Source of the DNA: Leptotrichia sp. oral taxon 847
GTDB taxonomy: Bacteria; Fusobacteriota; Fusobacteriia; Fusobacteriales; Leptotrichiaceae
Length of the DNA: 64,000 nt
Assembly: GCF_001553645.1 (NCBI RefSeq)
Contig: NZ_CP014231.1
Coordinates: 992,001 to 1,056,000 of the forward strand
Reading direction: 5' to 3'
In this document: piece by piece, positions 54,728 through 59,375 of the stretch
How positions within the stretch are numbered: position 1 is the first letter of the stretch
Layout: each line of letters begins with the position of its first letter
Made by a program: the position numbers and the translations under genes
Notes under the pieces: generated by a model
What the model was told of the DNA's origin: nothing
Database searches by the model: none
What the model saw: only the letters and a program-made list of their open reading frames with translations

Positions 54728-55141
54728 TTTTTTAAGCAGAAGTGCTCATCGCCGCACCCCTGCACCCCGGCAAGGCTCAAGACATTTTTATGCACTGCCA
54801 AAAAACTCGCTTACGGCGGGGCAGTTTTGTCAGCACATAAAAATGCTCCGACGGTTTAAATTTTACTATTATACAAAAGGTGTCGTGATTTTTTTGGAGT
54901 AAAGACGATTGTTTGAGCACGTCTAGTGCGAGTTTCGGCTTTGCTTCAAAAAAATGCTTAGACGAGCGTGGGGATTATAAGGGGAAATGGCGGTCCTTTC
55001 CCCTTATGTAAAAAAATAAAAAAATAATATTAAACAAAATAACATCTTGTAATCAAGAATAACTTAAAAAATTTGAAATTAAAAAATCTGCCCCTAAAAT
55101 TTTTAAACCATCTTTTTTTCGATGGTGTAAAAATTTTAGAA
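54728..55141 (-). repeat. Intergenic repeat family, copy B (longest, G+C-rich)
   Basis: The 727-base gap between the HAD gene and spoVG is mostly this element, on the opposite strand from copies A and C. It is visibly richer in G+C than everything around it (for example CCGCACCCCTGCACCCCGGC from 54753). It carries an inverted repeat, CATTTTTATGCACTG (54783) against CAGCACATAAAAATG (to 54845). A second stem is formed by AAGGGGAAA and TTTCCCCTT near 54980-55012. A near-perfect 19-bp hairpin sits at 55096-55141. No reading frame looks protein-coding. Confidence 0.7.
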
Positions 55142-55242
55142 ATAGAAAAAAATTGTTATTTTATGAATTTCGTGAATTGAATAAAAAACTTAAAATAGAA
55201 GTTTTTATTTACTTGATATATAAAAAATATCGAAGAATTCTC

Positions 55243-55305: not shown

Positions 55306-55587
55306 ATGAAAGTAACAGATGTTCGTATTAGAATAGGAAAAAAGCCCGAAGATGCTAATGATAGATTAAAGGCACATGTGGACATTACTTTTGAAGATAG
55401 CTTTGTTATTCATGGTTTAAAAATAATTGATGGTCAAAATGGTTTATTTATTGCAATGCCATCTAGAAAAATGCCCAATGGGGAATTTAAAGATATAGTT
55501 CATCCTATAACTCCTGAATTGCGACAAGAAATAACAAAAGTTATACTTGATAAGTTCAATGAAGAAAGTAATAAAATAGAAGAATAG
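55306..55587 (+). CDS. spoVG: Septation protein SpoVG
   Basis: A 93-residue protein that aligns along its whole length with SpoVG: MKVTDVRIRIG, LKAHVDITFEDSFVIHGLKI, NGLFIAMPSRKMPNGEFKDI and HPITPELRQEITKVILDKF. SpoVG binds nucleic acids and modulates division, virulence and envelope genes in non-sporulating bacteria as well. It has a promoter directly upstream and is isolated on the plus strand. It is followed by a weak hairpin TAGTT/AACTA, then a stem CTCC...GGAG near 55615-55636. Confidence 0.95.
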   Translation: MKVTDVRIRIGKKPEDANDRLKAHVDITFEDSFVIHGLKIIDGQNGLFIAMPSRKMPNGEFKDIVHPITPELRQEITKVILDKFNEESNKIEE

Positions 55588-55650
55588 TTTTTTAACTATT
55601 TCTTGCAAAAATTCTCCAACTCTTACAAGTGGGAGATAAGTGCTTTTTTC

Positions 55651-55679
55651 TTGGTATTTTTTAGAAAATATGATATATT
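55651..55679 (+). promoter_or_regulatory. Promoter of a candidate small RNA
   Basis: TTGGTA (55651-55656), 17-base spacer, TATATT (55674-55679), with TG at 55671-55672 making an extended -10. No reading frame with a ribosome site follows. Confidence 0.5.
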
Positions 55680-55685
55680 CAATCT

Positions 55686-55825
55686 AATAACAATCTTTGA
55701 ACTGCCCAGAAATCTTGATAAATAATATGCAGCATATACTTTTTAAGAATCTGCATTTTTAAATTGGAACAGTTCATTTACACCATATTTTTTTTAATTT
55801 TACAAATATATGGTGTATTTTTTTT
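55686..55825 (+). ncRNA. Candidate structured small RNA ending in a terminator
   Basis: About 140 bases between an extended -10 promoter and a strong terminator. The body contains nested inverted repeats: GAACTG (55699-55704) with CAGTTC (55770-55775), and ATGCAG (55727-55732) with CTGCAT (55751-55756). ATATGCAGCATAT is also self-complementary. The terminator arms are TACACCATAT (55779) and ATATGGTGTA (to 55817), followed by eight T. There is no ORF with a ribosome site. It does not look like 6S, SRP, RNase P or tmRNA. The class is unknown. Confidence 0.45.
55779..55825. terminator. Terminator between candidate small RNA and the TIGR02206-type gene
   Basis: Stem TACACCATAT/ATATGGTGTA with T-run 55818-55825 on the plus strand. 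A-run on the other side allows it to end the minus-strand gene at 55843 as well. Confidence 0.7.
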
Positions 55826-55842
55826 AATTCTTAGTTACAAAT

Positions 55843-56529
55843 TTAATCAAACTTGCTTTTTATTTTTATTTTTGAAAAAAAATAAAGTAAAACCTCCAGT
55901 AGTATCATTACAGTAATCAATCCCACTCTATACACCCAAAAAGGTTTTACAAATCCAAATAATTTAGGTGCAATATATTCTCGTAAAAACATCGCATTCA
56001 CATCTTTAAACAAATAATTATAAAATACAGCGTACAAAAATATCCCTAATAAAGTTATTATAGATTGAAAAAGACCTTTCTTTGTCGGAGTCCCATTTAA
56101 ATATTTGGCACCAAAAACTGCAGCAAAAACAATTAGAGCATGCATTATCATAAAGATATAAACATAATAATTGTTATAATAATTTGTAATACCAGGCAAA
56201 ATCAATGCTAAAACAGGACCAAAAGATAAATAATAAACGACATTATACAAGTATTCCGTTCTAAAAATGAGATAAAAAGCAGCAAAAATCGCAACAAAGT
56301 TACAAAGATGAACAAGCATTACATTATAAATCGGTTCATTTTGATAAATCACCCGATAGACAGAATCAACTACTTTAAAGAATAACAAAAAATATCCCAA
56401 AAAAAGTGAATATTTTTTTAAATCAAGTCTTTTAAAAATTTTTGGAATAAAAAGCAGCAAAGTGCAGAATAATGCTGAAACAATAAATGTTTCTATATGA
56501 ATTGGACTAAAATAACTAAAATTATACAT
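55843..56529 (-). CDS. TIGR02206-type (YwaF-like) membrane protein
   Basis: A 228-residue protein with about seven membrane helices. It starts MYNFSYFSPIHIETFIVSAL and has LVHLCNFVAIFAAFYLIFR, YLSFGPVLALILPGITNYY and YIFMIMHALIVFAAVFGAKY. This H-L-C-N and H-A-L pattern is that of the YwaF/TIGR02206 family of unknown function. The frame is open 13 codons upstream, but AGAGAGGGAATTT precedes the ATG at 56529. It lies 44 bases downstream of the MFS transporter. Confidence 0.75.
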   Translation of the reverse strand: MYNFSYFSPIHIETFIVSALFCTLLLFIPKIFKRLDLKKYSLFLGYFLLFFKVVDSVYRVIYQNEPIYNVMLVHLCNFVAIFAAFYLIFRTEYLYNVVYYLSFGPVLALILPGITNYYNNYYVYIFMIMHALIVFAAVFGAKYLNGTPTKKGLFQSIITLLGIFLYAVFYNYLFKDVNAMFLREYIAPKLFGFVKPFWVYRVGLITVMILLEVLLYFFSKIKIKSKFD

Positions 56530-56573
56530 AAATTCCCTCTCTTTTTGCAATTTTTTTAATTTTACCATAAATT

Positions 56574-57889: not shown

Positions 57890-57966
<77 letters not shown>

Positions 57967-57989
57967 AAAAAAACTACTTTAAAAAAAAA

Positions 57990-58084
57990 TGGCGGAGAAG
58001 GAGGGATTTGAACCCTCGATCCAAGTTTTAGCCCGGATACTCCCTTAGCAGGGGAGCGCATTCGGCCAGCTCTGCCACTTCTCC
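57990..58084 (-). tRNA. tRNA-Ser (GCT)
   Basis: GGAGAAG acceptor, anticodon loop CTGCTAA, long variable arm typical of serine tRNAs, TTCAAATC T-loop and encoded CCA. Confidence 0.95.
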
Positions 58085-58097
58085 AAAATCATATTTA

Positions 58098-58184
58098 TGG
58101 CGGGTGAACTGGGATTCGAACCCAGACATCTTGCGATTTCGCCGGTTTTCAAGACCGGTCCCTTAGCCGTTCGGACATCCACCC
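58098..58184 (-). tRNA. tRNA-Ser (TGA)
   Basis: GGGTGGA acceptor paired with TTCACCC, anticodon loop CTTGAAA, long variable arm, TTCGAATC T-loop and encoded CCA. Confidence 0.95.
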
Positions 58185-58243
58185 ACACGTTACATGTGTC
58201 ATTTTATCATATTTTATTGAACTTGTCAAACATTTTTTAACTT

Positions 58244-58340
58244 TTAGATAATGTAAAAATTTTAGCGACAAATTTTAATTTCAATATTTTTTAACTTATT
58301 CTTGACTACAAGATGTTATTCTGTTTAATATTATTTTTTG
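58244..58340 (+). repeat. Intergenic repeat family, copy D (one end only)
   Basis: GACTACAAGATGTTATTCTG near 58314 and the flanking TTATTC and TTTAATATTATTTTTT blocks match, on the opposite strand, the end of copy B around 55025-55066. The similarity continues to AATGTAAAAATTTTAG near 58250, matching the B hairpin arm. Only about 100 bases of the family are present. Confidence 0.55.
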
Positions 58341-58350
58341 TAAAATTAAA

Positions 58351-58392
58351 AAGAAACTGTTTCATAGAATTATTTCTTATAAGACAGTTCTT
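58351..58392 (-). terminator. Terminator of the tRNA-ybaB transcript segment
   Basis: Arms AAGAAACTGT and ACAGTTCTT with a long A/T-rich loop, followed on the minus strand by TTTTTAATTTT. It lies after the micro-ORF at 58420. Confidence 0.5.
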
Positions 58393-58419
58393 CTTCATTT
58401 TCAATATTTTTAAAATTTA

Positions 58420-58470
58420 CTAGTCTGATATTCTTCCAAATTCATCAGTGGGTAAATTATCCACTGACAT
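58420..58470 (-). CDS. Candidate 16-residue micro-ORF
   Basis: ATG-to-TAG frame encoding MSVDNLPTDEFGRISD, preceded by AAAGGAG with ideal eight-base spacing. The first codons include half of an inverted repeat TCAGTGG/CCACTGA (58445-58467), so a hairpin forms just after the start codon. It lies between ybaB and a terminator. It may be a small protein, a leader-like peptide, or the eroded start of a longer gene. Nothing downstream in frame supports the last option. Confidence 0.4.
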   Translation of the reverse strand: MSVDNLPTDEFGRISD

Positions 58471-58520
58471 AATAAACTCTCCTTTAATTTAAAAATATAT
58501 TTTATGTAAACAATTTTTTA

Positions 58521-58880
58521 TTAAAATAATCCTGGAATGCTTACACCACCTGTAACAACTTCCATTTCCTTTTCAGCCATTTCTTCAGCTTTATCTAAAA
58601 TTTCATTTACTGCATTTATAATTAAATCTGAAACAATTGTCGAATCATTTTCTTCAACAGCGTCCTTTAAAACATCCAAAGAAATTGATAAATCAACTAT
58701 TTTTTTTTGACCATTGGCTTTAACAGTGATTCCCCCACCAGCTACAGAACTTTCTACAAATTTATCTTTCAATCCGTCTTGGATTTTCAACATTTCTTGT
58801 TGCATCACTTGAGCTTGTTTTATAATATCTTGTTGGCTTCCTCCTGATTTATTTCCTGCTCCTTTTATTTTTCTAACCAT
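58521..58880 (-). CDS. YbaB/EbfC nucleoid-associated protein
   Basis: A 119-residue DNA-binding protein of the YbaB family. MVRKIKGAGNKSGGSQQDII precedes the core QAQVMQQEMLKIQDGLKDKF, VESSVAGGGITVKANGQKKI and VSDLIINAVNEILDKAEEM. The family is a dimeric tweezers-like fold that binds DNA with little sequence preference. In many bacteria it is next to dnaX and recR; here it is embedded among tRNA genes, with tRNA-Tyr upstream, and is probably read from the tRNA promoter. Confidence 0.9.
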   Translation of the reverse strand: MVRKIKGAGNKSGGSQQDIIKQAQVMQQEMLKIQDGLKDKFVESSVAGGGITVKANGQKKIVDLSISLDVLKDAVEENDSTIVSDLIINAVNEILDKAEEMAEKEMEVVTGGVSIPGLF

Positions 58881-58943
58881 AATTAATATTTCCTCCTACG
58901 AAATTATATGATTTCAACATTTAATAATCTTTATAAAAAAAAA

Positions 58944-59028
58944 TGGTGGAGAGAGAAGGATTCGAACCTTCGAAGGCTGAGCCGGCAGATTTACAGTCTG
59001 ATCCCTTTGGCCACTCGGGAACCTCTCC
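58944..59028 (-). tRNA. tRNA-Tyr (GTA)
   Basis: GGAGAGG acceptor, anticodon loop CTGTAAA, long variable arm as in bacterial tyrosine tRNAs, TTCGAATC T-loop and encoded CCA. Confidence 0.95.
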
Positions 59029-59048
59029 ACAACATTATTAATTTTTTA

Positions 59049-59124
<76 letters not shown>

Positions 59125-59130
59125 ATAAAA

Positions 59131-59207
59131 TGGCGGAAGTGACGAGATTTGAACTCGCGACATCTTGCGTGACAGGCAAGCACTCTAACCAGCTGAGCTA
59201 CACCTCC
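59131..59207 (-). tRNA. tRNA-Asp (GTC)
   Basis: GGAGGTG acceptor, anticodon loop CTGTCAC, TTCAAATC T-loop and encoded CCA. Confidence 0.95.
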
Positions 59208-59213
59208 ATAAAA

Positions 59214-59289
59214 TGGTGGTCACAATTGGGCTCGAACCAATGACCCCCTGCTTGTAAGGCAGGTGCTCTCCCAACTGAGCTATGCGACC
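59214..59289 (-). tRNA. tRNA-Val (TAC)
   Basis: GGTCGCA acceptor, anticodon loop CTTACAA, TTCGAGCC T-loop and encoded CCA. Confidence 0.95.
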
Positions 59290-59300
59290 ATTAACTTGGA

Positions 59301-59375
59301 TGGTACGGTCTAGGGGAGTCGAACCCCTGTTGCCAGGATGAAAACCTGGAGTCCTAACCACTAGACGAAGACCGC
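59301..59375 (-). tRNA. tRNA-Glu (TTC)
   Basis: GCGGTCT acceptor with a G-U closing pair, anticodon loop TTTTCAT, TTCGACTC T-loop and encoded CCA. First gene after the promoter. Confidence 0.95.

Follow-up and report, generated by a model that had tools for sequence, protein, structure and literature searches.

A decayed, tnpB-less IS200/IS605-type element as the probable source of a candidate small RNA gene downstream of spoVG in Leptotrichia sp. oral taxon 847

Introduction

Does the spacer downstream of spoVG in Leptotrichia sp. oral taxon 847 hold a small RNA gene of its own? The spacer, which separates spoVG from a convergent gene for a TMEM164-like membrane protein, lies in a stretch of 64,000 nucleotides (the window; G000:C1:992001–1056000) of the 2.19-Mb host genome, G000. 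A first-pass annotation of the window had placed a stand-alone RNA gene at 55651–55825, with an extended −10 promoter, a body of nested inverted repeats, a terminator with eight T and no protein frame. Here, we examine where each of these parts comes from (Table 1).

Results

The promoter was found as described, with TG preceding the −10 of TTGGTA-17-TATATT. GAACTG/CAGTTC and the inner inverted repeats were equally present in the candidate body, and a 10-bp hairpin (TACACCATAT/ATATGGTGTA) followed by eight T closes the unit at 55779–55827. Plain promoter matches in the region are at chance level (23 found versus 22 expected). The window's 28 intergenic regions contain a single case of an extended −10 promoter with a strong terminator after it, and 20 shuffles of these regions contain none; a chance origin of the order was rejected on this ground. 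The candidate body by itself folds weakly (z −1.1 to −1.9); it is the terminator hairpin that folds strongly (z −3.8). Neither of the candidate's small frames matched a Pfam protein family. An Rfam search of the region returned no family at gathering score and nothing relevant. Elsewhere in the window, the strongest intergenic hairpin lies upstream of spoVG at 55059–55180 (AAATTTTTAAACCATC...GATGGTGTAAAAATTTT; z down to −9.5), and the minus strand carries a cluster of eight tRNA genes at 57893–59375, split into two groups by a gene.

Table 1. Features at the spoVG locus (window coordinates).
Feature	Coordinates	Strand	Evidence or remark
spoVG	55306–55587	+	Upstream of the insertion; PF04026, E 1.4e-32; NF009749
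Target-site motif TTTAAC	55591–55596	+	Directly precedes the element; read in the sequence; same motif before intact solo copies
Putative decayed solo (tnpB-less) IS200/IS605-type element, PATE-like	55597–55778	+	End-to-end alignment with 16 intact solo elements
Left-end (LE) hairpin TCTCCAACT..AAGTGGGAGA	55613–55636	+	Near-identical to the LE hairpin of a G005 solo copy (L095/L136); folds as a hairpin
Element-borne promoter TTGGTA-17-TATATT, extended −10	55651–55679	+	Same position as the promoter of intact subfamily-A solo elements
Right end (RE)/omega-RNA (reRNA) scaffold, decayed	55690–55778	+	Reciprocal covariance searches
Long-range helix (T)GAACTG/CAGTTC(A), enclosing the scaffold	55698–55776	+	Family counterpart GAACTA/TAGTTC or GGACTG/TAGTTC
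Probable native spoVG terminator, outside the element	55779–55828	+	Hairpin z −3.8 and T8; ten other species have a TACACC..GGTGTA hairpin at this place 3′ of spoVG
TMEM164/TIGR02206-like membrane-protein gene	55843–56568	−	Convergent; PF14808, E 1.3e-30

Does the candidate body have relatives? BLAST against relatives and public collections (33 family genomes, 98 phylum genomes, phages, plasmids, viral contigs and bacterial genomes) found no full-length homolog and gave only short AT-rich or coding chance matches; those to query positions 76–105 in G002, G003, G005, G007 and G022 were coding sequence and were set aside. The case for homology thus rests on covariance searches and end-to-end alignment. 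A covariance model of the candidate's single sequence (R1), run on 13 congeneric genomes, gave four non-self matches in the genus, each of them a scaffold copy. The best match (G005:C1:1125061; E 0.013 for one genome) is full length and lies directly 3′ of the stop codon of a 365-aa TnpB (PF01385, PF07282 and PF12323: OrfB_IS605, Cas12f1-like TNB and HTH_OrfB). Another, L095, lacks tnpB and carries an LE hairpin nearly identical to the one in the window. Conversely, a model built from 24 intact REs and not from the candidate (R2) ranked 55702–55778 first in the 64-kb window at 15.2 bits (E 0.14, weak alone and roughly calibrated).

We then aligned 55588–55800 with 16 intact tnpB-less copies of about 200 bp, using 300 shuffles for each. 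The scores lay 9.2–13.3 standard deviations above those of the shuffles, and neither a shuffle nor any other window segment matched them. The alignment runs end to end over 55591–55778, from TTTAAC through the LE hairpin and the promoter to the end of the RE scaffold, with 70–76% identity over aligned positions in the five solo copies measured. The element itself sits directly 3′ of this short fixed motif with no target duplication, and it is too short to encode a transposase. These comparisons point, with a probability of about 0.93, to a decayed non-autonomous IS200/IS605-type (PATE-like) element of some 182 bp, whose insertion, 3′ of TTTAAC, separates the spoVG stop codon from the spoVG terminator. 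The promoter would then be the element's own, which explains the promoter-terminator order. That order had been taken as the mark of a small RNA gene; it does exceed chance, but the end-to-end match to solo IS605 elements speaks against a stand-alone host gene. The structured body has a genuine non-coding RNA as its homolog, the RE/omega-RNA scaffold of IS605-type elements, but it sits in a decayed mobile-element copy and not in an sRNA of the spoVG locus. An independent host gene that arose de novo, unrelated to transposons, could account for the anatomy of promoter, body and terminator and for little else: it is scarcely credible beside an alignment that includes the LE hairpin and the promoter position, and beside a terminator that appears to belong to spoVG.

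The family is well represented in the genus. RE matches number 7 in the host genome, 27 in G005 and at least 40 each in G003 and G007. Three TnpB genes of this family, 95% identical to the query, are present in the host genome; an RE follows each of them, and a Y1 TnpA gene lies at 1569240, just before one. The scaffold lies at the RE directly after tnpB in the full-length copies (L092, L094 and the three host copies). Many other copies are solo, consisting of TTTAAC, an LE hairpin, 38–56 bp, the RE and the flank, with neither tnpA nor tnpB; at least 26 such copies of full length were found in five species. In 10 of the 16 solo copies read, TTGAAA-17-TATAAT (CATAAT in one) with an extended −10 stands directly before the RE scaffold, and the hexamers are otherwise identical although the spacers differ. 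In intact elements of subfamily A, the better-preserved subfamily, the promoter is TTGAAA-17-TATAAT with TGG preceding the −10. The remaining solo copies have a weaker TTGACA/TTGATA/TTAACA-17-TACACT, apart from one shortened copy without a promoter.

Several individual copies may be recorded here. L133–L142 and L144–L149 are intact solo IS605 elements; those with the promoter may be stand-alone genes for TnpB guide RNAs. Intact solo copies in the host genome include those at G000:C1 315536 and 945583. G003 holds a diverged RE copy on the minus strand between rpsG-like and fusA-like genes (L093:1534–1622, the same as L143:327–415). Its terminal hairpin has altered base pairs but can still form (GCTCT/AGAGC), a hint that the structure has been retained. 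Other decayed RE copies occur in the host genome (L156–L158; G000:C1 1517729, 1513385 and 1416335), and at 1517729 an LE-like stretch is joined straight to an RE end, as after deletion of the core.

Is the element present at spoVG in related species? The spoVG/TMEM164-like gene pair is retained in most species of the genus. Its spacer measures 255 bp in the host, whereas G005 and G007, the closest species (spoVG DNA 91% and 89% identical to the host), have about 75 bp there, with one terminator and nothing else; the host spacer is longer because of the insertion between the spoVG stop codon and terminator. The element is absent from the orthologous site in 12 of 12 sister species examined (G005, G007 and ten others), a comparison with species whose spoVG-downstream sites have themselves diverged. 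A covariance search downstream of spoVG, the check first proposed for the RNA gene, found no homolog of the candidate body in relatives at that position; its homologs are at transposon right ends in other parts of the genomes. The TACACC..GGTGTA hairpin with T8, previously assigned to the RNA gene, starts where the element ends, and its matching position and stem in ten species suggest that it is the native spoVG terminator. Thus, hairpin and T-run exist as described but lie outside the element, and the unit 55651–55825 gives way to an element at about 55597–55778 with the terminator beyond it.

The hairpin after spoVG has features of its own. About 60 nt long and directly 3′ of the gene, it is 93–99% identical to a single query in ten related species (L041–L050). 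Its AT-rich loop is conserved too, the flanks diverge, and those genomes contain no second strong copy; this conservation exceeds what a plain terminator needs. Because of its TGTATA core, a dif site was considered and then dropped, as the window has no sustained reversal of GC skew. The look-alike in the host genome, which sits in unrelated sequence, also argues against a dif site.

Is the element transcribed only as part of spoVG mRNA? The fossil may simply be part of an extended spoVG 3′ UTR, read through as far as the native terminator, with its own promoter inactive. The LE hairpin has no adjoining T-run, and the first good terminator 3′ of spoVG is the one beyond the element, as expected for such read-through; the promoter hexamers, still near consensus and at the family's position, argue the other way. 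We consider this only slightly less than an even chance, and it is compatible with a decayed element.

Which parts of the scaffold survive in the window copy? Of the helices, the central one (CTTGG/CCAAG) persists as CTTGA/TTAAG, through a G-C to A-U change and a G-U pair. The long-range helix GAACT(A/G)/(T/C)AGTTC, which had been noted in the first-pass annotation as an outer repeat and which is paired in 97.9% of cells in the family, is kept as well. The first scaffold hairpin is lost, and so is the RE hairpin (GCTCCC/GGGAGT in intact copies), which leaves the LE hairpin as the remaining near-terminal hairpin. Because of the loss of the RE hairpin, we call the window copy a decayed descendant and not a functional member of the family. 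Since hairpins close to the element ends are what TnpA of this class recognises, the copy is probably immobile. Most likely, it is a fossil, immobile and no longer a working guide, and there is some chance that its promoter may still fire.

Persistence of an ordered extended −10 promoter and a terminator despite 25–30% divergence, together with a central helix that survives by a compensated pair and an intact long-range helix, could instead reflect exaptation as a host RNA: a working promoter and a transcript of about 140 nt, stopped by the spoVG terminator, that serves in regulation or as a residual TnpB guide. Listeria Rli31 (PMC4959528) prompted a test of pairing with the spoVG 5′ UTR, and such pairing was not in excess (67 of 200 shuffles were as good). 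The copy is moreover single and lineage-specific with no sign of conservation, two of its hairpins are gone and its body folds weakly, all of which makes exaptation improbable.

Discussion

What could maintain elements that encode no protein? Solo elements without tnpA and tnpB are probably mobilised in trans by the TnpA of full-length copies. The internal promoter of an intact solo element would give rise to an omega-RNA, and the flanking DNA would supply its 3′ guide. By analogy with ISDra2, the CRISPR-like nuclease TnpB from another copy, directed by the solo guide, would cut the empty site, so that the solo element would be retained. If the window copy made an omega-RNA, the first ~16 nt of the spoVG terminator would be its guide part. 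The same analogy allows a wider proposal, which we advance tentatively and think rather doubtful: intact solo elements may be self-contained guide-RNA genes that load TnpB in trans and so protect each insertion, and the window copy may be an old representative that still has an active promoter and relies on the host's terminator to end its RNA.

A locus-specific sRNA candidate is thereby replaced by a general explanation: anonymous intergenic "sRNA genes" with promoter and structure in this genus can be solo IS605 elements or their fossils. Intact solo copies resemble promoter-driven guide-RNA genes without a nuclease, and their near-consensus promoters before the omega-RNA scaffold predict that guides for TnpB are expressed in trans by nuclease-less elements. 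TnpB studies in Geobacillus reportedly mention tnpB-less copies too.

How does the family compare with known systems? ISDra2 integrates on the 3′ side of a fixed target and does not duplicate it; the omega-RNA (reRNA) of TnpB is located at its right end, and TnpB uses this RE-derived RNA with ~16 nt of flank as guide to cut the empty site beside the target motif (PMC8612924). The present family is alike in that the scaffold lies at the transposon RE, on the tnpB strand and directly after the tnpB stop codon in full-length copies, in that the guide would derive from flanking DNA, and in that the target motif lies on the element's other side. It differs in that the ISDra2 reRNA overlaps the tnpB 3′ end within an element that carries tnpB (PMC8612924), whereas the solo copies have their own promoter and no tnpB. 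Intact REs also match Rfam RF02841, Ref70 (Enterococcus sRNA 70), weakly and with similar helix order (L094:1497–1612 and L146:266–379; E 0.014 and 0.21; 32.7 and 26.2 bits versus a gathering score of 115); the window copy is unmatched. Ref70 may itself be an IS605 right end.

The closest likeness is to the palindrome-associated transposable elements (PATEs) of the IS200/IS605 family in Haloquadratum walsbyi (PMC3119063) and Halanaerobium (PMC7290912). The present elements and the PATEs alike are short, lack a transposase gene and have near-terminal palindromes related to IS605-type ends; both show no terminal inverted repeats and no target duplication, reach many copies and have related full-length elements in the same genomes. 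The present family differs in that a near-consensus promoter immediately precedes the RE RNA scaffold in intact copies, and in that the window copy is heavily decayed. The word "promoter" is absent from the Halanaerobium paper (PMC7290912), and we found no description of the promoter-bearing solo form in the literature searched, which takes in few subscription papers; we claim no priority. PATEs and reRNA are already known, and the window copy is a further, decayed PATE-like case.
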